Part shown: positions 179 to 20,639 of the stretch, piece by piece
Layout of the letters: every line of letters begins with the position of its first letter
How positions within the stretch are numbered: the first letter of the stretch is position 1
From: Bordetella pseudohinzii
GTDB lineage: Bacteria > Pseudomonadota > Gammaproteobacteria > Burkholderiales > Burkholderiaceae_B
NCBI RefSeq assembly: GCF_000657795.2
Contig: NZ_JHEP02000004.1
Location: 124,001-188,000 of the forward strand
Length of the DNA stretch: 64,000 bases
Direction: 5' to 3'
Notes under the pieces: generated by a model
Seen by the model: only the letters and a program-made list of their open reading frames with translations
What the model was told of the DNA's origin: nothing
The model's database searches: none
Program-made: the position numbers and the translations under genes

Positions 179-748
179 TCAAGCCAATTGGCAGATGCCG
201 TTTTTGAGGAGGTAGCGGTCGCCGGTGTGCGGGCAGGTGGTTTCGCCGTCGCCGGTCAGGGGCAGGTCGAGCTGTTCGCCGTGGCGGCTCATCCAGCCGA
301 TCTGCCGGGCGGGCACGCCCACCATGAGCGCGAAGTCGGGGACGTCCTTGTTGACCACCGCGCCGGCGCCGATGAAGGCATAGCGGCCGATGGTGGCGCC
401 GCAGACGATGGTGCAATTCGCGCCCAGCGTGGCGCCCTGCTTGACCAGGGTGTCGCGGTATTCGTTCTTGCGTTCGATGGCCGCGCGCGGGTTGTAGACG
501 TTGGTGAACACCATGCTCGGGCCGCAGAAGACGTCGTCTTCGATGAAGACGTTGTCGTAGACCGAGACGTTGTTCTGGATCTTGACGCGGTTGCCTATGC
601 GCACGCGGTTGCCCACGAAGACGTTCTGGCCGAGCGAGCAGTTGTCGCCGATCTCGGCGCCGCCGCAGACATGGACCCAATGCCAGACGCGGGTACCTGG
701 GCCGATGCGGGCGCCCTCGTCGACGATTGCGCTGGAATGAATGCTCAT
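179..748 (-). CDS. wlbB: UDP-sugar N-acetyltransferase WlbB (left-handed beta-helix)
   Basis: A 189-residue protein made almost entirely of hexapeptide repeats ([30 protein letters not shown]), the signature of left-handed beta-helix acyltransferases. The conserved stretch around [14 protein letters not shown] fits the WbpD/WlbB group. In the known pathway it uses acetyl-CoA to acetylate the 3-amino group of UDP-GlcNAc(3NH2)A, giving UDP-GlcNAc3NAcA for LPS. The ATG at 748 reads [12 protein letters not shown]; the frame stays open upstream into wlbA, but that part is shadow. It lies 8 bp after wlbA and 7 bp before wlbC, one operon. Cytoplasmic; the trimer expected from the family is not visible here. 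Confidence 0.92.
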
Positions 749-756
749 CGCGGGCC

Positions 757-4983: not shown

Positions 4984-5655
4984 ATGCGCATTTTGCTGGT
5001 CGAGGACAATCCTGACCTGGGCGATGCGGTGGAGAGCAAGCTGCGCAATGCCGGCCATAGCGTGCAGTGGGCGCGCGACGGGCTGGCGGCCGTCCAGTGG
5101 GGGCGCGCCGAGCCCTGGGACGCCCTGGTGCTGGACATCACGCTGCCGGGCAAGGACGGCTATGCCGTGCTGCGCGAATTGCGCGCCGCCGGCCTGGAGG
5201 CGCCCGTGCTCGTCATGACGGCGCGCGCCGAGATCGAGGACAAGGTCGATATGCTGGATCTGGGCGCCGACGACTATCTGGTCAAGCCTTTCGATTTGCG
5301 CGAGCTGGAGGCGCGGCTGCGCGCCCTGATGCGCCGGCCGGGCGGGCAGACCTCCAGCGTGACGGTCTTCGGCAACCTGACCCTGGATACCGCCGGCCGG
5401 GCCGTGAAGCTCGACGGGCAGCTGCTGGAACTGGGCCGGCGGGAGTTCCGCTTGCTGGAGATCCTGCTGGCCCGTCAGGGCCAGACGGTGGCCAAGGAGC
5501 GCCTGATGGCGCAGCTCTTTGACGCCGACGATGTGTCGCTCAATGCCCTGGAGCTCTTGATCTCGCGCTTGCGCAAGAAGCTCGCGGGGGCTTCCATCGA
5601 TATCGTCACTGTGCGTGGCGTCGGCTATCAGGCGCGTCCAGATGCGTCCTCATGA
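4984..5655 (+). CDS. OmpR-family response regulator
   Basis: 223 residues. The receiver domain (1-115) has the acidic pair E7/D8, phospho-acceptor D51 in LVLDITLP, a conserved T in VMTARA and K in LVKPFD. A C-terminal winged helix follows (about 125-220, ending GVGYQARP). It resembles TctD/QseB-type regulators. ATG at 4984 follows an AGGGGAG ribosome site. Its stop lies inside the start of the sensor kinase gene (14-bp overlap), so the two are translationally coupled. The probable target is the ABC importer downstream, because the kinase contains a binding-protein domain of the same family. Confidence 0.93.
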   Translation: MRILLVEDNPDLGDAVESKLRNAGHSVQWARDGLAAVQWGRAEPWDALVLDITLPGKDGYAVLRELRAAGLEAPVLVMTARAEIEDKVDMLDLGADDYLVKPFDLRELEARLRALMRRPGGQTSSVTVFGNLTLDTAGRAVKLDGQLLELGRREFRLLEILLARQGQTVAKERLMAQLFDADDVSLNALELLISRLRKKLAGASIDIVTVRGVGYQARPDASS

Positions 5656-8125
5656 CGGCTTCTCCATCCGCCGGCGGGTGTTCATGCTGGCGCTGCTGTC
5701 GCTGGCCTGCGCCTCGGTGGCGCTGTTTTTCTTCCTGCGCGCCTATGGGCATCGCGCGGCCGAGCAGGCTTTCGACCGCCTGCTGGCCGCCTCGGCCCTG
5801 ACCATTGCCGGCTCGGTGCAGATCGACGACAGCGGCGTGACCGTCGAGCCGCCGTTTTCTTCGCTGGCCATGCTGCCCGGCAGCGAGCGGGTTTTCTACC
5901 AAGTGCTCAATGGCAGCGGCCGGGCCATCACCGGTTATGCCGACCTGGCACCCGCCTTGCCGCTGGCGGATTCCGCCGTGCCGCGTTTTGCCTATGAGCG
6001 CTATCACGACGAAGCCATACGGGTGGCCACGGTGGGCCGGCTGGTATCGGCCAGCCAGCATGCGGGCTGGGTGACCGTGCGCGTGGCCGAGACGCTGGGC
6101 TCGCGCCAGGCCCTGGCCGCCGAGATCCTCAATCGCAGCCTGTGGCCGCTCCTGGTCGTGGTGGGCGTGGCCCTGGCCTTGCTGTGGTTTGGCATCCAGC
6201 GCGCTTTCGCGCCCCTGGCCGTGGTCGAGCGCGAACTGCGCCATCGCGAGCCGGACGACCTGGCGCCCTTGCGCGCGCCAGTGCCGCGCGAAGTCCGGCG
6301 CCTGTCGGAGGCCTTGAACGCTTTCATGCAGCGTCTGTCGGTCATGATGGACAGCCTCAATACGTTGGTGGCCGATGCCGCCCACCAGGTGCGCACGCCC
6401 CTGGCCTCGCTGCGGGCGCAGGCGGAGGTGGCGTTGGAAGAGCAGGATCCGCGGCGCCTGCGCGAGCGCGTGGCGCGCATTCACCAGAACGCCACCCAGG
6501 CCAGCCAGCTGATCAACCAGTTGTTGATGGATGCCACCATCGCGCATCGCCTGGGGCGCGGCGAGCGCGCGGCCGTGGGTGTGGCCGAGACGGTCAACGA
6601 GACGCGCCGGCGCATCGGTCCGCTGGACGCGCGGCGGCTGCGCATCACCATCGCGCCGCAGCTGCGGCGCGCGCGCGTCATGGGCGATCGGGTGGCTTTG
6701 CGCGAGATGCTGCGCAATCTCGTGGACAATGCCTTGCGCTACGCGCCCGATTCATGGGTGGAGATCCAGGTCACGCCGGTAGCCGGTTATCGCCTTGCCT
6801 TGACGGTCTCGGATCGCGGGCCGGGTATTCCGGAGGCCGACAGGGAGCGGGTGCAGCAGCGCTTCGAGCGCGGCGCCAGCGACCTGCCCGGCTCGGGCCT
6901 GGGCCTGGCCATCGTGCGTTCGGTGGCTCAGGCCCATGGCGGCTCCTTGTGGCTGCAGGACCGGCCGGGCGGCGGCCTGATGGCGCGCGTTGTGCTGCCG
7001 CTGGCACAAGGGCGGGCGCGCCTGGCCGTGGCCTTGCTGGCCGTCTGCTGCCTTTTGCCCGGCCTCTGGCCGGCGCCGGTCCAGGCGGCCAAGGTCATCC
7101 AGGAAAGCCGCTACCCGGCGCCGCGTCCGTCGGGCCGCGTGCTGACCGTGGCCGGGCCCACCGACACGCCGGTCATCGCGCCCTTGGTCGCGGGCTTTCA
7201 GTCGGAGCGTCCCGATGTGACCGTGGTGTACCGCGAGATGAACAGCCGCGAACTCTACGAGGAAGCCGTGGCCGGCCGGCTCAAGGACGTCGATGTGCTG
7301 ATCAGTTCGGCGCCCGATCTGCAGATACGGCTGGCCAATGATGGCTATGCCCTCAGCTACGCCTCGCCCTATGCGCGTGGCCTGCCGTCCTGGGCGGTCT
7401 GGCGCGATGAAGTCTATGGTTTCACCTTCGAGCCGGCCGTCATCGTCTACAACCCGCGCCGCTTCAGCGAAGCGACCGCGCCGCGCTCGCGCCAGGCGCT
7501 GTTGCGCCTTTTGGAGCAGGAGGGCGCCAGCCTGCGCGGCCGTGTGGGCACCTACGACATCGCCGCCAGCAATGTGGGCTATGTGCTGGCGGAGCAGGAT
7601 GAGCTGGTGTCGTCCAATTTCTGGGGTCTGGCCAATGCGCTGGGGCAGGTCGGCGTGCGCCTGGCGACCAACAGCGGCGAGCTGCTCGACGCCATCGAGC
7701 GCGGCGAGCTCGACCTGGGCTACAACCTCCTGGGCTCCTATGCGCTGGCGCGGCAGGCCGCGGGCGAGGCCATCGGCGTGATCCTGCCCCAGGACTATAT
7801 GCTGGTGCTGGCGCGCTCGGTGCTCATCGCCCGGCGCGCGCCCAATCCGGACTTGGGGCGCGCCATGGTGGATTGGCTGCTGTCGCCGGCGGGGCAGCAA
7901 GTGGCCGCCAACCATGCGGCCCTGGGCGCGCTGGTGCCGGGCACGCCCGGCCCCTGGACGGCCGATGCGCTGCAGGCGCGGGCGCGCGGCATCGTGCAGC
8001 CCATCGTGCTCAGTCCGGCGCTGCTGGTCGGACTGGACCAGCAGCGGCAATCCCGCTTTGTGCAGAACTGGATGCGGCTGGTGACGGATACGCCGGAAGC
8101 GCCGGCTCAGGCCAGACGGCCCTAG
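5642..8125 (+). CDS. Sensor histidine kinase fused to a periplasmic solute-binding domain
   Basis: One uninterrupted frame of 827 codons. Residues 1-450 are a TctE-type kinase: TM1 near 11-33, a periplasmic segment, TM2 near 165-185, then H-box HQVRTPLA with His248, an N-box and G-boxes (DRGPGIPEAD, GSGLGLAIVR). A hydrophobic stretch (about 460-480) then ends in a signal-peptidase-like PVQA-AKV, and residues 485-800 form an AfuA/FbpA-type binding domain. That domain is colinear with the next gene's product (shared PSWAVW/PAWAVW, FEPAV/YEPAV, TYDI, GYN-LGSYA). In-frame ATG 6980 and GTG 6992 could instead start a separate secreted protein, but neither has a clear ribosome site. Salmonella PgtB/PgtC is the nearest split analogue known to me. 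The start at 5642 is preferred over an upstream alternative at 5615. Confidence 0.85.
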   Translation: MRPHDGFSIRRRVFMLALLSLACASVALFFFLRAYGHRAAEQAFDRLLAASALTIAGSVQIDDSGVTVEPPFSSLAMLPGSERVFYQVLNGSGRAITGYADLAPALPLADSAVPRFAYERYHDEAIRVATVGRLVSASQHAGWVTVRVAETLGSRQALAAEILNRSLWPLLVVVGVALALLWFGIQRAFAPLAVVERELRHREPDDLAPLRAPVPREVRRLSEALNAFMQRLSVMMDSLNTLVADAAHQVRTPLASLRAQAEVALEEQDPRRLRERVARIHQNATQASQLINQLLMDATIAHRLGRGERAAVGVAETVNETRRRIGPLDARRLRITIAPQLRRARVMGDRVALREMLRNLVDNALRYAPDSWVEIQVTPVAGYRLALTVSDRGPGIPEADRERVQQRFERGASDLPGSGLGLAIVRSVAQAHGGSLWLQDRPGGGLMARVVLPLAQGRARLAVALLAVCCLLPGLWPAPVQAAKVIQESRYPAPRPSGRVLTVAGPTDTPVIAPLVAGFQSERPDVTVVYREMNSRELYEEAVAGRLKDVDVLISSAPDLQIRLANDGYALSYASPYARGLPSWAVWRDEVYGFTFEPAVIVYNPRRFSEATAPRSRQALLRLLEQEGASLRGRVGTYDIAASNVGYVLAEQDELVSSNFWGLANALGQVGVRLATNSGELLDAIERGELDLGYNLLGSYALARQAAGEAIGVILPQDYMLVLARSVLIARRAPNPDLGRAMVDWLLSPAGQQVAANHAALGALVPGTPGPWTADALQARARGIVQPIVLSPALLVGLDQQRQSRFVQNWMRLVTDTPEAPAQARRP

Positions 8126-8153: not shown

Positions 8154-8171
8154 ATGACAGGACGCCGACAG
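8154..8171 (-). promoter_or_regulatory. 11-bp-spaced direct repeat, possible response-regulator site
   Basis: ATGACAG (8154-8160) and CCGACAG (8165-8171) are spaced exactly 11 bp apart. Read on the minus strand this is CTGTCGG-N4-CTGTCAT, close to the Pho-box layout of two CTGTCAT-type repeats. OmpR/PhoB-family regulators typically bind repeats with one-turn spacing. The site lies 70-90 bp upstream of the binding-protein gene. A separate dyad GCTGGT-N6-ACCAGC lies at 8197-8214. Confidence 0.4.
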
Positions 8172-8241
8172 ACTGCGAAACCTAAGATGCGCCCAGGCTG
8201 GTCCGAGAACCAGCTTCATCATTCCAATGGAGAAGACAGCC

Positions 8242-9336
8242 ATGTTCGCCAAATCCTGCCTGGCCGCCACGCTGGCGGCCGCCTTCACCTTGGCCGCCGG
8301 CAGCGCCGGCGCCCAGGTGCCCCAGGGCTACCCGGCCGACTACCAGAAGATCCTCGACGGCGCCAAGAAAGAAGGCAAGGTCGTAATCTATTCGACCACC
8401 GACACCAAGGCCGCCGCGCCCATCATCGCGGGTTTCGAGGCCGCCTTCCCGGGTGTGAAGGTCGAGTACAACGACATGAACAGCACCGAGCTGTACAACC
8501 GCTATATCAGCGAGCAGGCTTCGGGCAGCACCAGCGGCGACGTGGTCTGGAGCTCGTCCATGGACTCGGCGCTCAAGCTGGCCACGGACTATGCCCTGCA
8601 ATACCGTTCGGCCGAGGCGGGCAAGCTGCCGGCCTGGGCCGTGTGGAAGGATTCGGCTTATGGCACCACGTATGAGCCGGCGGTCTTCATCTACAACAAG
8701 CGCCTGATCCCGCAGAACGAAGTGCCGACCACGCACACGGCGCTGGCCAAGCTGATCGCCGGCCAGCCGGACAAGTTCAAGAACAAGGTGACGACCTACG
8801 ACATCGAGAAATCGGCCGTGGGTTTCATGCTGGCCGTGCAGGACAAGGCCAATGATGCGCATTACTTCGACACCTTGCGCGACACGGCCAAGGGCGGCCT
8901 GATCGTGCAGTCCTCGACCGGCACGATGATGGAGCGCGTGTCCTCGGGCGAAAACCTGGTGGGCTACAACATCCTCGGTTCCTACGCCGAGGCGCGCGCC
9001 AAGAACGATCCTTCGCTGGGCATCGCCTATCCGACCGACTACGCGCTGGTGCTCTCGCGCGTGGCCTTCATCAGCAAGAAGGCCAAGAACAAGAACGCCG
9101 CCAAGCTGTGGATGGATTACCTGCTGTCCAAGAAGGGCCAGGACATCGTGGCCAACCGCGCCGACATGGCGTCGATCCGCGATGACATCGACGGCGACAA
9201 CGACGTCGACGGCATGACCAAGAAGCTGGGAGCGGCGCTCAAGCCCATCCCCGTCAACGAAAGCCTGCTCGAGTACCTCGAGCAGAACAAGCGCCTCGAG
9301 TTCATCAAGCAGTGGCGCGCTGCCGCGGGCAAGTAA
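8242..9336 (+). CDS. ABC transporter substrate-binding protein (AfuA/FbpA type)
   Basis: 364 residues with a clear signal peptide (MFAKSCLAATLAAAF, cleavage near AGA-Q at about 24) and a type-2 periplasmic binding fold of the Fe(III)/sugar-phosphate/2-aminoethylphosphonate class. The ATG at 8242 is chosen because GGAG at 8229 sits at ribosome-site distance; the ATG at 8227 has none. It delivers substrate to the permease and ATPase encoded next. Its close paralogue is the C-terminal domain of the preceding kinase. Substrate is not determined: iron, hexose phosphate, phosphoglycerate and phosphonates are all family possibilities. Confidence 0.9.
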   Translation: MFAKSCLAATLAAAFTLAAGSAGAQVPQGYPADYQKILDGAKKEGKVVIYSTTDTKAAAPIIAGFEAAFPGVKVEYNDMNSTELYNRYISEQASGSTSGDVVWSSSMDSALKLATDYALQYRSAEAGKLPAWAVWKDSAYGTTYEPAVFIYNKRLIPQNEVPTTHTALAKLIAGQPDKFKNKVTTYDIEKSAVGFMLAVQDKANDAHYFDTLRDTAKGGLIVQSSTGTMMERVSSGENLVGYNILGSYAEARAKNDPSLGIAYPTDYALVLSRVAFISKKAKNKNAAKLWMDYLLSKKGQDIVANRADMASIRDDIDGDNDVDGMTKKLGAALKPIPVNESLLEYLEQNKRLEFIKQWRAAAGK

Positions 9337-9420: not shown

Positions 9421-11190
9421 ATGCAGTCATTGCGCAGAAAATGGCAATCCCTGCCGCGCGGCGTCGTCGTGCTGCTTACGGCATTGGCGATCTATGTGCC
9501 GTTGTCGTTCATCATCGTCCAGAGTTTTCTGTCGGCGCCTTTTTTCGCGCCCAGCAAGCATTTCAGCCTGGATGCCTTTCATTTCATCTTTGACGATCCG
9601 GATTTCTACAAGGCCCTCAAGAGCGGTTTCATTCTCGCCTTCGGCCTGGCGGCCATCGCGATCCCGCTGGGCGGGATGTTGGCCTTTCTCATGATACGCA
9701 CGGACCTGCCGGGGCGGCGCTGGATCGAGCCGCTCATCCTGGTGCCGGTCTTTGTCTCGCCCATGGTGCTGGGCTTCGGCTATGTGGTGGCCGCCGGGCC
9801 GGTGGGATTTTTCTCGATGTGGGCGCAGCAGTTGCTGGGCTTCATCCCCTGGAACATCTATTCGCTGACCAGCATCGTCATCATCGCCGGCCTGACGCAC
9901 GTGCCGCATGCCTATCTCTACATCTCGTCGGCCCTGCGCAGCATGGGCTCGGATGTGGAGGAGGCGGCGCGTGTCTCCGGCGCCTCGCCGCTGCGCGTGA
10001 TGATGTCGGTGAGCCTGCCCATGGTGCGCCCGGCCATGCTCTACGCCACGGTGCTGCTTTTTTTCCTGGGGTTGGAGGTCTTTGGCCTGGTCCTGGTGCT
10101 GGGCGACCCCGAGGGCAACCTGGTGCTGGCGACCTATCTGTACAAGCTCACCAATAAGCTGGGCATTCCTTCCTATCACCTGATGGCCGCCGTGGCCGTG
10201 GTGCTGATCGCCATGACCATCCCCCTGGTGATGCTGCAGCGCCGCCTGATGCGCACGGCCAACCGCTTCGTGACCATGAAGGGCAAGGCCTCGCGCGCGC
10301 GTCCGCTGCCGCTGGGCCGCTGGCGCTGGGCGGCCGGGGGCGTGGTGGCCTTCTGGCTGCTGGTGACCATCGTCGTGCCCTTGATCGGCGTGCTGCTGCG
10401 GGCCTTTGTCTCCAACTGGGGCATGGGCGTGTCGCTGTTCGATGTGCTGTCGCTGGACGCCTTCCGCACGGTGTTCTCGCAGCCCAACCTGATCCGCGCC
10501 ATCATCAATTCTATTGCCATCGGCGTGTTCGGCGGCGCGCTGGCGGTGTTCTGCTATCTCTTCATCGGCCTGGCCATGCATCGCAAGCCGGATAACGTCA
10601 CCCGCTTTCTGGACTACAGCGTGCTGGTGCCGCGCGCGGTCCCCGGGCTGCTGGCGGGCCTGGCCTTTCTCTGGGTTTTTCTCTTCGTGCCGATGTGGCT
10701 GGACAACTCGCTCGAAGACGGCTGGCTGTCGGCCTTGCCTTTCGCCGAATGGCTGCGCGAGCACTTCGTCGAGTGGCTGCGCGCCATGCGCAGCACCATC
10801 TTCAGCGTCTGGCTGGCTTATACCGTGGTCTGGATGGCCTATGGCCTGCGCCTGATTTCTTCCACCCTGCTGCAGGTCGGGCCCGAGCTGGAAGAGGCCG
10901 CGCGCAGCACGGGCGCATCGCGCGCGCAGGTCACCCGCCACGTGACGGTGCCGCTGGCCAAGTACGGCCTGATCGGCTCCTGGCTGCTGATGTTCCTGAT
11001 TTTCGAGCGCGAGTATTCGACCGGCGTCTATCTGCTGTCGCCCGGCACCGAGACCATCGGTTCGATGCTGGTGTCGCTCTGGGCCTCGGGCGCCATCGAC
11101 ATCGTGGCCGCGCTTTCCTTTATCAATATTGTCCTGGTCGTGGTCGGCCTGGGCATCGCGCTGCGTTTCGGAGTCAAACTTCATGATTGA
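9421..11190 (+). CDS. ABC transporter permease, two fused permease halves
   Basis: 589 residues with about 12 membrane segments. Two BPD-type permease domains each carry an EAA loop (EEAARVSGASPLRV near 180; EEAARSTGASRAQV near 500). Such double-length permeases are standard in FbpB/AfuB-like importers. It follows the binding-protein gene by 84 bp and overlaps the ATPase gene by 8 bp, so both products are probably made together. Inner membrane; pairs with two copies of the ATPase. Confidence 0.92.
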   Translation: MQSLRRKWQSLPRGVVVLLTALAIYVPLSFIIVQSFLSAPFFAPSKHFSLDAFHFIFDDPDFYKALKSGFILAFGLAAIAIPLGGMLAFLMIRTDLPGRRWIEPLILVPVFVSPMVLGFGYVVAAGPVGFFSMWAQQLLGFIPWNIYSLTSIVIIAGLTHVPHAYLYISSALRSMGSDVEEAARVSGASPLRVMMSVSLPMVRPAMLYATVLLFFLGLEVFGLVLVLGDPEGNLVLATYLYKLTNKLGIPSYHLMAAVAVVLIAMTIPLVMLQRRLMRTANRFVTMKGKASRARPLPLGRWRWAAGGVVAFWLLVTIVVPLIGVLLRAFVSNWGMGVSLFDVLSLDAFRTVFSQPNLIRAIINSIAIGVFGGALAVFCYLFIGLAMHRKPDNVTRFLDYSVLVPRAVPGLLAGLAFLWVFLFVPMWLDNSLEDGWLSALPFAEWLREHFVEWLRAMRSTIFSVWLAYTVVWMAYGLRLISSTLLQVGPELEEAARSTGASRAQVTRHVTVPLAKYGLIGSWLLMFLIFEREYSTGVYLLSPGTETIGSMLVSLWASGAIDIVAALSFINIVLVVVGLGIALRFGVKLHD

Positions 11191-12256
11191 GCTTTCCGTC
11201 GAAGACCTGCACCTGGACTACGGAGACAACCCCGTCCTCAAGGGCGTTTCCATGGACTTGCGCCAGGGCGAGGTGGTGTCCTTGCTGGGTCCCTCCGGCA
11301 GCGGCAAGACGACCTTGCTGCGCGCGGTCGCCGGCCTCGAAGGCCCCAAGGCCGGGCGCATCCGCATCGGCGAGCGCGTGGTATACGACGGCGCGGCGGG
11401 CAAGGAAGTGCCGGCCGAGGACCGCAATCTGGGCCTGGTATTCCAGTCGTATGCCCTCTGGCCGCACAAGACCGTGTTCGATAACGTGGCCTATCCGCTG
11501 AAGCTGCGCGGCGTGGCCGGCGGCGAGGTGCGCCAGCGCGTCCAGGACGTGCTGGATCAGCTGGGCCTGGGCAAGCTGGGGCAGCGTCATCCGCATCAGC
11601 TCTCCGGCGGCCAACAGCAGCGCGTGGCCATCGGCCGCGCCCTGGTCTACAGCCCGCCCGTCATTCTGCTGGACGAGCCGTTGTCCAACCTGGACGCCAA
11701 GCTGCGCGAAGAAGCGCGGGCCTTCCTGCGCGAGCTGATCGTGCGCCTGGGGCTGTCGGCGCTGATGGTCACCCATGACCAGAGCGAGGCCATGGCGATC
11801 TCAGACCGCATCCTGTTGCTGAACAACGGCAAGATCGAGCAACAGGGCACGCCGCAGGAAATGTACGGCTCGCCGGCGACCCTGTTCACGGCCGAGTTCA
11901 TGGGCAGCAACAACCGCCTGGACGGCCGCGTGACCGAGGTGCGCGACGGGCGCGCCCGCATCGAGGGCCAGGGCTGGGCGCTGTGGGGCCATGCCGCCGA
12001 GGGCGCGGCCGCGGGCAAGGATGCCACCGCCGTCATCCGCGTCGAACAGGTGCGTCTGCAGGATGATCCCGAGGGCAACCATCTGGATCTGCTGCTGATC
12101 ACCAGCATGTATCTGGGCGACCGTTGGGAGTATCTCTTTCGCGCGGGCGGGCAGGATGGCCTCTCCCTGCGCGCTTACGGCCCGCAAGGCCGCGAGGCCG
12201 GCCCCTGCCGTCTGGCCCTGCCGGCCGCAAGTGTCTGGATTTTCCCGCGAGGATAG
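11183..12256 (+). CDS. ABC transporter ATP-binding protein (FbpC/AfuC type)
   Basis: 357 residues with Walker A GPSGSGKTT, Q-loop VFQSYALWPH, signature LSGGQQQRVAIGRAL, Walker B VILLDEPLSNLD and H-loop VTHDQSEA. A C-terminal TOBE-like regulatory region follows (about 250-357). The ATG at 11183 overlaps the permease stop by 8 bp; the frame is open further upstream, but only inside the permease gene. Last gene of the importer unit, followed at once by a strong terminator. Confidence 0.93.
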   Translation: MIELSVEDLHLDYGDNPVLKGVSMDLRQGEVVSLLGPSGSGKTTLLRAVAGLEGPKAGRIRIGERVVYDGAAGKEVPAEDRNLGLVFQSYALWPHKTVFDNVAYPLKLRGVAGGEVRQRVQDVLDQLGLGKLGQRHPHQLSGGQQQRVAIGRALVYSPPVILLDEPLSNLDAKLREEARAFLRELIVRLGLSALMVTHDQSEAMAISDRILLLNNGKIEQQGTPQEMYGSPATLFTAEFMGSNNRLDGRVTEVRDGRARIEGQGWALWGHAAEGAAAGKDATAVIRVEQVRLQDDPEGNHLDLLLITSMYLGDRWEYLFRAGGQDGLSLRAYGPQGREAGPCRLALPAASVWIFPRG

Positions 12257-12318: not shown

Positions 12319-14490
12319 TCAGGCGCCGTGGGCCGCTTTGAAGGCCAGGCGGGCCTTGTGCAGCAGCGGCTCGGTATAGCCATTGGGTTGCTCCAGGCCT
12401 TCGAAGACCAGGGCCGTGGCGGCCCGGTAGGCGTAGGAGCTGTCGAAATGGCCGGCCATGGGCAGATAGTTGGGGTCGCCGGCATTCTGCTGGTCCACCA
12501 CTGCCGCCATGCGCTCGAAGGTCTGCCGGACCTGATCATGGCTGACCACGCCATGCAGCAGCCAGTTGGCGATGTGCTGGCTGGAGATGCGCAGCGTGGC
12601 GCGGTCTTCCATCAGGCCGATGTTGTTGATGTCGGGCACCTTGGAGCAGCCCACGCCCTGGTCGACCCAGCGCACGACATAGCCGAGGATGCCCTGGGCA
12701 TTGTTGTCGAGTTCGCGCTGGATATCCGACGCGCTCCAGGCGGTGGGGTCGCCCACCGGAATGGTGAGCAGGCCGGCGAGCAGCTCATCGGCCACATCGG
12801 CCAGGCGCGTTTTTTCCAGCGTTTGCTGCACGGCCTGCACATCGACCTGGTGGTAATGCAGCGCATGCAGGGTCGCCGCCGTGGGCGAGGGCACCCAGGC
12901 GGTGTTGGCGCCCGCCTTGGGATGGGCGATCTTCTGTTCCAGCATGGCGGCCATCAGATCGGGCATGGCCCACATGCCCTTGCCGATCTGGGCGCGTCCG
13001 CGCAGGCCGCAATCCAGGCCCACCAGCACATTGCTGCGCTCATAGGCGGCGATCCAGGCGCTGGACTTCATATCGCCCTTGCGCATCATGGGGCCGGCCT
13101 GCATCACCGAGTGCATTTCGTCGCCCGTGCGGTCCAGGAAGCCCGTGTTGATGAAGGCCACGCGATCGGCCGCCTGGGCGATGCAGGCCTTCAGGTTGAC
13201 GCTGGTGCGCCGCTCCTCGTCCATGATGCCCATCTTGAGGGTGTTGCGCGGCAGCTTGAGCAGGTCTTCGACGCGGGCAAAGAGCGTGTCGGCGAAGGCG
13301 GCCTCGGCCGGCCCGTGCATCTTGGGCTTGACGATATAGATCGAGCCCTTGCGCGAATTGCGCTTCTGGGTGAGATCGATGCGGGCGGCCAGGGAGGTGA
13401 TGACCGCGTCCATGATGCCCTCGGGCACTTCGTGGCCGTCGCGGTCCAGGATGGCCGGATTGGTCATCAGGTGGCCCACATTGCGCACAAAGAGCAGGGA
13501 GCGGCCCGGCAGCGTGAAGGCGCTGCCGTCGGGCGCGAGATAATCGCGGTCGGGGTTCATGCGGCGCGTGAAGGTCTTGCCGTTTTTGGTGACCGACTCG
13601 GTCAGGTCGCCGCGCATCAGGCCCAGCCAGTTGCGGTAGAGATGGGTTTTGTCTTCGGCGTCGACCGCGGCCACGGAGTCTTCGCAGTCCATGATGGTGG
13701 TGAGCGCCGCTTCCATGAGCACGTCTTTCACGCCGGCCGTGTCCGTGGCGCCTATGGTGTGCTGGCGATCGATCTGGATCTCGAAGTGCAGCCCGTTGTG
13801 CGCCAGCAGGATGGCCGAGGGCGCGGCGGCCTCGCCGCGATAGCCCTGGAACTGGGCGGGGTTCTTCAGCGTCGTGTCGCCTTGCGCCGTGGTGACGATG
13901 AGCTGGGCGCCGCGCAGCACATAGCCGGTGGCTTCGCGATGCGAGCCGCGCGCCAGCGGGGCCGCGCCGTCCAGGAAGTCGCGCGCGCGTTCGATCACGG
14001 CCTGGCCGCGCCGCGGGTTGTAGGCCGGGCCGGCCGCGCCGGCGCTGTCCGGGATGGCATCGGTGCCATAGAGGGCGTCATACAGGCTGCCCCAGCGGGC
14101 GTTGGCGGCGTTCAGGGCATAGCGCGCATTGGACATCGGCACCACCAGCTGCGGGCCGGCCTGGCGGGCGATTTCGTCGTCGACGTTTTCGGTGCGCGCG
14201 CGCACCGAGGCGGGCACGGGCTGGAGATAGCCGATCTTCTCCAGAAAGGCGCGATAGGCGGCGGGGTCGCGCACCGGGCCGGGGTGGCTGCGATGCCATT
14301 GATCCAATTCGGCCTGCAGGCGGTCGCGCTCGGCCAGCAGCTTGCGGTTTTGCGGCGCCAGGTCGTGGATGAGGGCGGCAAAGCCCGCCCAGAAGGCCTG
14401 GCTGTCCAGGCCGGAGCCGGGCAGGGCCTCTTTTTCGATGAACTGATACAGGGAGGCCGCCACCTGCAGGCCTGCGATGCGTTCGGTCAT
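12319..14490 (-). CDS. glcB: Malate synthase G
   Basis: A 723-residue enzyme condensing glyoxylate with acetyl-CoA to malate. The length and motifs fit isoform [21 protein letters not shown]-like [39 protein letters not shown] and [20 protein letters not shown]. The ATG at 14490 (MTERIAGLQ) is preferred; a TTG at 14511 would add seven residues but has no ribosome site. It is divergent from glcC, as expected for glycolate/glyoxylate control. No glcDEF genes are nearby. A regulator operator lies about 77 bp upstream of the start. Confidence 0.96.
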
Positions 14491-14566
14491 GGTGTCGCTC
14501 TGCAAAGTCAAAAAGGGATAGCGGGATCATCGGTCCTGCGGCCGCGGCTGTCCATATCCCAGGCCG

Positions 14567-14579: not shown

Positions 14580-14674
14580 TTTGTGCACTGCCGTATTGGC
14601 GGACAAACGTTTTTTATGGTTTTATTTCAGGTACTTGAACGTATATGGAGTCCTTGCCCGGCAGCGGGCGGGAA

Positions 14675-14687
14675 CTGGTCATACCAG
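14675..14687. promoter_or_regulatory. GlcC/FadR-type operator, copy 2
   Basis: Exact repeat of CTGGTCATACCAG, 108 bp from copy 1. It ends 14 bp before the preferred glcC start at 14702, so binding here would cover the start region of glcC. This suggests autoregulation. Confidence 0.7.
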
Positions 14688-14701
14688 TGGCAAATCTGCA
14701 G

Positions 14702-15460
14702 ATGGACGAGGCCGGCAAGCGCGGCCAGGTGGCCGAAGGGGTCGCGCAACGGATAGAGCAGCTGATCGTCGACGGCGTGCTCAAGGCCGGGCAGCCGCTG
14801 CCTTCGGAGCGGCGCCTGACCGAAAAACTGGGCGTGTCGCGCAGCGCCCTGCGCGAGGGGCTGCAATTGCTGCGGGCGCGCCAGATCATCCGCACCGAGC
14901 AGGGGCGCGGCTCCTTCGTGTCGCAGATCGCCAAGGTCGATGCCGGCCCGCTGGTGCATCTGTTCCATTCGCAGCCGCGCACGCTGTATGACTTGCTGGA
15001 GGTGCGCGCCCTCCTGGAGGGCGAGTCGGCCAGGCTGGCCGCCATCCGCGGCACCGAGGCGGACTTCATCCTGATCCGGCGCCGCTACGAGGCCATGGTG
15101 GCCGCCCACCTGAAGCCGGCCGACAGCGCCACGCACGCCCATCTCGACCATGCTTTCCATCTGGCGATCTGCGAGGCTTCGCATAATCCCGTGCTGGTCC
15201 ACACCCTGCAGTCATTGACCGACCTGATGCTGGGGTCGGTCTTTGCCTGCGTGAACAATCTCTATCACCGCGAGCCGCACAAGCGCCAGATCGACCGGCA
15301 GCATACGCGGCTGTTCAATGCGGTGATGGCGCGCCAGCCCGACCAGGCGCACCGGGCCGCGACCGAGCACGTCGACAGCGTGCGCCAGAGCCTGAATGAA
15401 ATCGAGCAGGAGGGCGAGCGCCTGGTGCGCGCCACCCTGCGCCTGGAAGGCTGGACCTGA
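14702..15460 (+). CDS. glcC: GlcC-like GntR-family transcriptional regulator
   Basis: 252 residues: an N-terminal winged helix (PLPSERRLTEKLGVSRSALR) and a C-terminal FCD ligand domain (HLDHAFHLAICEASHN). It aligns almost end to end with my recollection of E. coli GlcC (shared PRTLYDLLEVRALLEGESARL, LQSLTDLM and NNLYHR). I prefer ATG 14702, giving a length close to GlcC's 254, over ATG 14645, which would put an operator inside the coding region. GlcC responds to glycolate and activates the glycolate/malate synthase genes. Here it is divergent from glcB. Confidence 0.9.
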   Translation: MDEAGKRGQVAEGVAQRIEQLIVDGVLKAGQPLPSERRLTEKLGVSRSALREGLQLLRARQIIRTEQGRGSFVSQIAKVDAGPLVHLFHSQPRTLYDLLEVRALLEGESARLAAIRGTEADFILIRRRYEAMVAAHLKPADSATHAHLDHAFHLAICEASHNPVLVHTLQSLTDLMLGSVFACVNNLYHREPHKRQIDRQHTRLFNAVMARQPDQAHRAATEHVDSVRQSLNEIEQEGERLVRATLRLEGWT

Positions 15461-18512: not shown

Positions 18513-20639
18513 ATGAGGTACGCAGTGGCTCAGGTAGGTACGCTCAAAAAGCTGAGATATCGCTTCATCCCCGATCATGTGATCGGCGAGATTCTCTCGA
18601 AAAAATGGATAGACAACGCCATCCCCTTCCTGGTGCTGGTGGCGGTGATCGTGGTCTTCGGCCTGCTGCTGCCGAATTTCTTTTCGGCCGGCAATCTCTC
18701 GATGATGTCGCGCCAGCTCGGAGAGTTCGGGCTCATCTGCCTGGCGATGATGGTGGTGATCATTGTCGGCGGCATCGATCTATCGGTGGGGTCGAACTTC
18801 GCGCTGGGCAATTTCACGGCGCTGGCGCTGCTGAACCTGGCGCACTGGCCGCTATGGGCCGCCATTCCCGCCACGGTGCTGGTCTGCGGCGCCGTCGGCC
18901 TGGTCAATGGCCTGCTGATCGGCTATCTGCGGTTGCGCGCCTTCCTGACCACCTTGGTCACGCTCATCATCGTGCGCGCCATCGTCGACATGCTGCTGCT
19001 GAAGTATGTGCAGGCGATGTCCATGAGTTTTTTCTCCGATGAGGTCTGGGACCTGATCGGCATGGGCGACGTGCTGGGCATGCCTTTCGCGTTCGTGCTG
19101 CTGATCGTGGTGTCGCTGATCGGGCATGTGCTCATCACGCGCTCGCGGCCCGGCTGGCGCGCCATGGCGGTGGGCGGCTCGCGCCGGTCGGCGCACAACA
19201 TCGGCCTGCCAGTGCGCGGCATCGTCTGCTCGGCCTATACGCTGTCTGGCATGCTTTGCGGCCTGTCCGGCGTGCTTTACGCGGCCCGTCTGTCGGGCGC
19301 CGGCTCGGATACCGGCATGGGCCTGGAGATCATGGCGCTCACGGCGGCCATCATCGGCGGCAACTCGCTGGGCGGCGGGCGCGGCTCGGTCGTCAAGGCC
19401 CTGATCGGCGCGGTCATCGTCTTCGTGATGACCAATGGCGTGCTGCGCCTGGGCCTGAACTCCGGGTCCGGCCCCATGGTCCTGGGTCTGACGCTGATCT
19501 TCGCCGTTTTCATCGATGTGCGCTGGCTGAAGAACCGCGACAAGCTGCTCAACAAGGTCTATGTCTCGCCGACGCTGATCGAGCTGCCCGAGCCGCGCAG
19601 CACCCAGGAAGGGCCGCTGGCGCCCAATGATAGGCTGGCCGATGTCGAAATCATCGGCCTGGGCGAAGTGGAAAGCCCCGAAGATGTGATCCTGGACGAG
19701 GACGATGTGCTGTATTGCGGCACGCGCCATGGCGACATCGTGCGCTTCTTCCCGCCCGACTACACGCGCCATGAAGTTTTTGCCCATATCGGCGGTTCGC
19801 CCCTGGGCATGAGCCTGGACCGCGAGCGCAACCTGGTGGTCTGCATCGGCGGCATGGGTTTGTACAAGGTCACGCAGCAAGGCGAGGTGTCCAAGCTGAC
19901 GGACGAGACCAACCGTTCGCCCTTGTCCATCGTGGACGACAGCCGCCTGCGCTTGGCCGACGACTGCGATATCGCGCCCGACGGCAAGATCTACTTCTCC
20001 GAGGCCACGGTGCGCTACGAGATGCACGACTGGCCGGTGGATGCGCTGGAGAGCCGCGGCAATGGGCGGATCATCTGCCACGACCCGGCCACGGGCAAGA
20101 CGCATACGGCGGTGCGCAAGCTGGTGTTCCCCAATGGGGTGTGCACGGCGCGCGACGGGCAGTCCATCCTGTTTGCCGAAAGCTGGGCCTGCCGCATCAG
20201 CCGCCTGTGGATCAGCGGCCCGCGCGCCGGCAAGGTGGACATCGTGGTCGACAGGCTGCCGGGCTACCCCGACAACATCAACCGCGCCTCGGACGGCACA
20301 TACTGGTGCGCCATCATGGGCATGCGCTCGCCGGCGCTGGACGTGGCCTTGCGCATGCCGGACTTCCGGCGGCGGATGTCGCGCCGCATCGCCTTCGACC
20401 AGTGGCTCTACCCCAATCTGAACATCGGTTGCGTCATCCGCTTCAACGAGGCGGGCGAGGTGCTGGAATCCTTGTGGGACCGGGGAGCCAAGAACCACCC
20501 GATGATCACGTCGATGCGCGAGCACAAAGGCTGGCTCTATCTGGGCGGCATCACCAATAACCGGATCGGCCGCGTGCGCCTGCCCAATGCCGATCCGAAC
20601 TGGTCGGCGTGGTCGGACTATTGGGGGAAGACGGCATGA
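18513..20639 (+). CDS. Sugar ABC permease fused to strictosidine-synthase-like propeller
   Basis: 708 residues. Residues 1-350 are an RbsC-type permease (IIVGGIDLSVGSNFAL; IIGGNSLGGGRGS). Residues about 375-700 are an SMP-30/strictosidine-synthase (APMAP-like) beta-propeller: VESPEDVILDEDDVLYCGT, VFPNGVCTARDGQSILFAES, DRLPGYPDNINRASDGTYW. No stop, frameshift or ribosome site separates the parts. With RbsC topology the propeller would face the cytoplasm and could act on the incoming substrate, for example hydrolysing a lactone. ATG 18513 is given; GTG 18525, behind GAGGTA, is a good alternative. The next gene encodes a second, shorter propeller. Confidence 0.87.
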   Translation: MRYAVAQVGTLKKLRYRFIPDHVIGEILSKKWIDNAIPFLVLVAVIVVFGLLLPNFFSAGNLSMMSRQLGEFGLICLAMMVVIIVGGIDLSVGSNFALGNFTALALLNLAHWPLWAAIPATVLVCGAVGLVNGLLIGYLRLRAFLTTLVTLIIVRAIVDMLLLKYVQAMSMSFFSDEVWDLIGMGDVLGMPFAFVLLIVVSLIGHVLITRSRPGWRAMAVGGSRRSAHNIGLPVRGIVCSAYTLSGMLCGLSGVLYAARLSGAGSDTGMGLEIMALTAAIIGGNSLGGGRGSVVKALIGAVIVFVMTNGVLRLGLNSGSGPMVLGLTLIFAVFIDVRWLKNRDKLLNKVYVSPTLIELPEPRSTQEGPLAPNDRLADVEIIGLGEVESPEDVILDEDDVLYCGTRHGDIVRFFPPDYTRHEVFAHIGGSPLGMSLDRERNLVVCIGGMGLYKVTQQGEVSKLTDETNRSPLSIVDDSRLRLADDCDIAPDGKIYFSEATVRYEMHDWPVDALESRGNGRIICHDPATGKTHTAVRKLVFPNGVCTARDGQSILFAESWACRISRLWISGPRAGKVDIVVDRLPGYPDNINRASDGTYWCAIMGMRSPALDVALRMPDFRRRMSRRIAFDQWLYPNLNIGCVIRFNEAGEVLESLWDRGAKNHPMITSMREHKGWLYLGGITNNRIGRVRLPNADPNWSAWSDYWGKTA

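Follow-up and report, generated by a model that had tools for sequence, protein, structure and literature searches.

Organization of the locus

The window analysed here is a 64,000-nucleotide stretch of Bordetella pseudohinzii DNA. At 4984..5655 (+) it carries the gene for an OmpR/PhoB-family response regulator (Pfam Response_reg and Trans_reg_C), for which the nearest NCBIfam model is TctD (NF012023; E=1.8e-61, with a score of 207.6 bits that is below the model's cut-off of 337). This TctD-like gene lies upstream of, and overlaps the start of, a gene at 5642..8125 (+), for which a GTG at 5615 is a possible earlier start. The 827-residue product joins a histidine kinase to a binding protein: a 2CSK_N periplasmic sensor domain (residues 22-162; 5705..6127 (+); PF08521, E=2.7e-32), HisKA with the H-box His248 (residues 239-300; 6356..6541 (+); PF00512) and HATPase_c (residues 348-455; 6683..7006 (+); PF02518, E=2.2e-25) are followed by a solute-binding domain (residues 501-756), all above the Pfam cut-offs. 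The kinase thus has the 2CSK_N, HisKA and HATPase_c domains used to recognize TctE/TctD systems. After HATPase_c comes an internal signal-peptide-like segment at approximately residues 458-482 (7013..7087 (+)), and the predicted mature binding protein would comprise residues 483-827 (345 aa; 7088..8122 (+)). In the window, the binding half follows the kinase in frame instead of being made on its own behind an N-terminal signal peptide.

Downstream, an operator-like TGACAGGACGCCGACAG at 8155..8171 (+), an 11-base direct repeat, precedes an ABC importer with its own binding protein (8242..9336 (+)), a permease with two BPD_transp_1 stretches (9421..11190 (+)) and an ATPase (11186..12256 (+); PF00005, E=2.1e-36). 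This putative citrate importer is adjoined by a gene for malate synthase G (NF002825) at 12319-14511 (-), and divergent from the latter is a GntR-type regulator gene, assigned by eye, at 14645-15460 (+). Further along, a single frame of 708 aa at 18513-20639 (+) appears, from its translation by eye, to unite an RbsC-like permease and an SMP-30/gluconolactonase-like domain.

The kinase and binding protein form one conserved frame

The initial annotation had described a TctE-like kinase and a periplasmic-family binding domain in a single open frame. Both were confirmed: the frame is real and runs through the two halves with no stop. When 268 genomes of the window's family were searched, 77 had hits with E no higher than 1e-60, and 68 of these 77 carried the intact fused frame. 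The remainder were two matches that end at contig ends (G015 and G019), one fused gene with two frame changes (G176, locus L076) and six genomes (G033, G037, G079, G171, G198 and G226) with only more distant kinases of the 36-42% class. Both halves were present in 69 family loci, and the fused form was intact in 68 of them. When named genomes were scanned and the best 80 of 312 relatives kept, 78 of the 80 were fused (43/44 betaproteobacterial and 35/36 alphaproteobacterial loci), with one locus (L168) counted as fused on a partly covered kinase; the two others were a locus at a contig edge (L131) and a split one (L204). The betaproteobacterial loci came from Bordetella, Achromobacter, Alcaligenes and their kin, and the alphaproteobacterial loci mostly from Devosia, with Pelagibacterium, Aureimonas and others. 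The closest named locus was 95% identical in the binding half, the window's own record possibly being left out. The family and named sets overlap, as the betaproteobacterial loci are largely from the same genomes, and are not independent. Since sequences within genera are not independent either, changes on trees and separate fusions were counted rather than rows alone.

Beyond the family, a sample of 297 Hyphomicrobiales genomes gave 68 with matches, of which 15, the centre included, were full-length in one row; two of these 15 (G1525 and G1439) carry a stop, and in both the frame of the binding protein comes after this stop of the kinase. Under strict limits, samples of the order, class and phylum (399, 274 and 398 genomes) contained the full-length fused form only in the window's own family. 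Among the plasmid records listed, H1-H11 and H15 annotate the fused chain as 'extracellular solute-binding protein' and H12 is unannotated; such a product name may hide the kinase half from surveys by product name.

The fused-versus-split count proposed with the initial annotation found no conserved stop between the halves in the family or named loci, and so left the single polypeptide unrefuted. That the split is the true state in close relatives was rejected as a candidate, as no clean split of the two halves was present among the 69 family loci and L076 is a frame-changed fusion. The same locus, with its two frame changes, is what could be cited for a decaying gene or a sequencing artefact joining two genes. 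We consider this explanation negligible, given that the frame is intact in the 68 other family loci and in named alpha- and betaproteobacteria, and that the kinase residues H248, N359, D391, G393, G395, G417, G419 and G421 are invariant in alignments of 18 and 61 rows.

The junction resembles a signal peptide

A third hydrophobic segment was found after the kinase core, as had been annotated. It has an Arg-rich start, a hydrophobic core and a Val-Gln-Ala end, and a cut is predicted at V-Q-A|A, after Ala482 (the -1 site; codon 7085-7087). The junction was aligned for 103 distinct fusion proteins, of which 68 came from the family and 35 were alphaproteobacterial, and changes were counted on their tree. 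Ala482 was Ala in 102 of the 103, with one change, compared to 40, 29, 36 and 42 changes at -2, -3, -4 and -5. All four Ala codons are in use at this position. The sole exception, L014, has Tyr aligned at -1 with Ala right beside it; in the 61-row alignment, where column 482 is invariant, its named twin (L130) shows Ala. Of 234 low-change columns over the entire chain, position 482 was the most isolated among changing neighbours. Position -3 was Ala, Val or Thr in 97/103 and -6 was Pro in 80/103 (18 changes). The -1/-3 rule of signal peptidase and a Pro near -6 are textbook knowledge. The N-terminal signal peptide of the transporter's own binding protein displayed the same pattern less sharply (-1 Ala in 38 of 45 rows, four changes). 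Lys or Arg stands directly ahead of the uncharged stretch in 100/103, which fits an N-in/C-out orientation, although the measure by its construction begins at a charged residue, and 25/103 have Asp or Glu there too. By its column counts, the third segment resembles a signal peptide with a conserved -3/-1 site within one frame.

The plain [AVS]-x-A rule was dropped, since it matched 65/68 junctions but also 60/68 second (TM2) and 18/68 first (TM1) helices. A home-made cleavage-site matrix was set aside after wrong registers at first and then poor separation. With four of its 43 training rows dropped, it recovered 34/39 positives on leave-one-out and placed 39/68 beta and 19/35 alpha junctions above the 95th percentile of 159 permease helices, compared to 21/68 TM1 and 1/68 TM2 helices of the same proteins. 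An AlphaFold model (mean pLDDT 80.4, pTM 0.61) had residues 457-485 below a pLDDT of 50 and thus no confident placing for them.

In another reading, translation of the binding protein would start within the frame and give it a signal peptide of its own, the full chain being a minor product. Split relatives achieve the same outcome with separate genes, and in the window an ATG at codon 447 (6980) and a GTG at codon 451 (6992) stand before the segment, the region in which initiation had been suggested as a check. However, the ATG occurs in only 7/103 fused proteins, and the more common GTGs, at codons 425 and 428 (66 and 67 of 103), lie inside HATPase_c and have no Shine-Dalgarno sequence. A start codon with a Shine-Dalgarno sequence anywhere in codons 425-466 was found in 22/103, within the range of 1 to 55 of 103 given by 12 control windows. 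At the sequence level, the 103 proteins thus share no start codon that is both conserved and preceded by a ribosome site, and the candidate was rejected. Internal initiation would also leave in-frame fusion over many junction lengths needing another reason, and we regard it as very unlikely.

Split relatives and the history of the fusion

Relatives in which the two halves are separate genes were also examined. A related kinase, 45% identical and present in four genomes from a single gammaproteobacterial genus, stops at the equivalent point, where a distinct gene begins for a binding protein whose N-terminus is signal-peptide-like by eye. Ten stretches of relatives included seven split paralogues from the window's own family, again with signal-peptide-like starts by eye; of the rest, L212 was without a binding-protein match and L213 and L214 had divergent kinases. 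Among 18 chosen Hyphomicrobiales stretches (mostly adjacent pairs), 17 were split, with signal-peptide-like starts by eye, and one was fused. In a Devosia metagenome-assembled genome (L204), the binding protein has its own gene, ahead of the kinase, likewise with a signal-peptide-like start by eye. Two of the split Hyphomicrobiales stretches have a lipobox-like end; in L232 and L233, the signal of the separate binding protein closes with a lipobox-like LAGC or LAAC immediately beyond the stop of the kinase, which may be a third solution with a membrane anchor.

These relatives bear on the model of the initial annotation, in which the kinase is uncut and the C-terminal binding domain, tethered by the third helix, is a built-in sensor. 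The one conserved frame and the Lys/Arg ahead of the uncharged stretch, right for N-in/C-out, would both suit such a tether. By contrast, a tether requires no Ala at an exact place, yet position 482 changes once among neighbours that change 29 to 42 times, and related split systems provide the binding protein with a signal-peptide-like start. The permanently tethered sensor was therefore not upheld: the conserved Ala482 at a signal peptidase I site and the split relatives displace it as first choice, and we now view it as improbable.

A quick tree was built from 52 selected rows, and the groups tested on it were named after it had been seen. It required at least four changes of the fused state, three of them forced by starred branches. 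Placement of all fused rows in one clade was rejected (p 1e-51 without L204 and p 1.3e-5 with it), and the main group plus Azospirillum as one clade was weakly rejected (p 0.027). Two gammaproteobacterial split rows joined the split paralogues instead of the fused main clade, and L231 and L251-L254 are fusions outside that clade. The Devosia split is nested inside the fused clade and is thus likely a return to separate genes. Six further fused junctions (L231 and L250-L254) end in small-x-Ala. The tree suggests that fusion took place at least twice, possibly with a third event in Azospirillum, and that the genes were parted again once. We think it fairly probable that sensor kinases and soluble co-sensors have repeatedly become signal-peptidase-processed polyproteins, in which the cut would fix a 1:1 dose and leave the signal peptide as a third kinase helix.

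Kinship and candidate ligand of the binding half

The fused binding half and the product of 8242-9336 are paralogues (35% over 319 aa), in agreement with the initial annotation. The fused half is closest, in shared fold and sequence kinship, to 3c9h and to the metal-citrate-binding MctA. Five of six mutated MctA positions are kept in it, one of them as Ser/Thr: across the 103 fused proteins, D508 was found in 103, S556 in 99, S643 in 103, S/T678 in 98 and Y700 in 99. The sixth, S26 of MctA, corresponds to Pro506 in the window, a position with Pro in 58/103 and Ser in 4/103. The MctA mutants titled apo are at four positions, equivalent to S556, S643, S678 and Y700 of the window. Genes next to relatives encode a tripartite tricarboxylate transporter, citrate lyase and aconitase. 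From this kinship and gene context, we infer that the ligand of the fused half may be citrate or a similar (metal-)tricarboxylate.

An operator-like repeat precedes the transporter

The TGACAGGACGCCGACAG repeat ahead of the importer is followed by a -10-like TAAGAT at 8183-8188, identified by eye; a consensus scan found no sigma-70 promoter. An exact GACAG-N6-GACAG stands 83-102 bases ahead of the start of the importer's binding protein in 44/44 betaproteobacterial loci (ABC type). The transporter's own binding protein in alphaproteobacterial loci is TctC, which is of another family, and in 24 of the 25 such loci with tctC found, the exact repeat lies ahead of tctC on the same strand at 75-87 bases (166 in L195). 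The lone miss is L204, where tctC runs past the locus edge, and in the locus DNA examined the 11 alphaproteobacterial loci with no detected tctC had no exact repeat either. Thus, the sensor module stays while the transporter is of the ABC type in betaproteobacterial loci and of the tripartite tricarboxylate type in alphaproteobacterial loci with tctC. Among the five fused plasmid loci, the exact repeat is before tctC in L250, occurs four times in L253 and is absent from L251, L252 and L254; split L255 and L256 have one each.

A longer form of the repeat pattern was found once in the 4.54-Mb genome of the window, and its reversed control not at all. By contrast, the loose GACAG-N6-GACAG with one mismatch occurs three times in the window compared to 3.13 expected by chance, with no excess; to be informative, a match has to be exact or of the longer form. 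Read on the opposite strand, the repeat is similar to a PhoB box, described in PMC4513871 as two (T)GTCAT boxes. Taken with its position, the operator-like repeat points to control of the neighbouring transporter, as the initial annotation had linked the sensor to this importer.

Additional boxes were observed in two loci. In 12.4 kb of an Azospirillum thermophilum plasmid (L253), exact boxes are at 2613, 4121, 7393 and 9886, some of them ahead of the regulator, of a malic enzyme and of a gene leading to citC/citD, a distribution suggestive of a broader citrate regulon. In Bordetella genomosp. 5 (L130), a second exact box at 2239 (+), about 100 bases ahead of the regulator gene, suggests self-control of the regulator there.

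A putative sensory polyprotein

Our preferred reading, to which we assign a probability of roughly 0.78, is that the gene encodes a sensory polyprotein, a TctE-type kinase plus a citrate-type binding protein, that is cut by signal peptidase I. It draws on the frame, the conservation of the site, the split relatives, the repeat and the fold, all of them features of the sequence. The third hydrophobic segment would enter the membrane N-in/C-out and signal peptidase I would cut after Ala482; this would free a soluble periplasmic binding protein at 1:1 with the kinase, and the segment would stay on the kinase as its third membrane helix. The freed protein may then capture citrate or a similar (metal-)tricarboxylate and, once loaded, dock on 2CSK_N by analogy to BctC on BctE. 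The kinase would in turn phosphorylate the regulator, and the phosphorylated regulator would bind the GACAG repeat and switch on the importer.

Parts of this scheme have counterparts in known systems. Citrate-loaded BctC stimulates BctE and hence the citrate transporter, as described in PMC5812351 and PMC9602780. BctE-BctD of Bordetella pertussis and TctE-TctD pair a TctE-type kinase with an OmpR-type regulator, as in the window. BctC, however, is encoded by a separate gene, belongs to the TctC family and is the transporter's own binding protein, whereas the MctA-like half in the window is fused to the kinase and distinct from the binding protein of the transporter. MctA (7f6e and its mutants) and Agrobacterium 3c9h are, by their titles, single ABC-transporter binding proteins, while the window half follows a kinase. 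In Salmonella, the PgtB kinase acts with a separate periplasmic protein, PgtC, which is not fused to it. The Pgt pair had been offered as the analogue of the window gene, for which TctE/BctE together with a binding protein of the citrate type is probably the better match.

FbcH of Bradyrhizobium, the cytochrome b/c1 polyprotein, has membrane and periplasmic proteins in one chain that are parted at an internal signal sequence. FbcH belongs to a respiratory complex and is not a sensor, but its one-chain layout of membrane and periplasmic proteins is like that of the window gene. BvgS and EvgS are single chains that combine Venus-flytrap domains with a histidine kinase; as described in PMC8534201, these domains lie in tandem in the kinase's periplasmic part and remain attached. 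Unlike this order, the binding domain of the window (501-756) is C-terminal to the catalytic core (HATPase_c, 348-455) and follows a cleavable-looking signal. Among the open-access papers that our searches listed, no title or abstract start described such a kinase-binding protein polyprotein or fusion.

Receptor stimulation by binding proteins is termed general and widespread, and their double role largely unexplored, in PMC9602780. If the signal peptide is left as a third kinase helix, maturation of the kinase may be tied to secretion of its ligand-binding partner. If the chain is cut, one kinase would be tied to one binding protein by translation, in a pair that is named here and for which a ligand and an operator are suggested. 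Such translational pairing would give a direct test of why stoichiometry matters.
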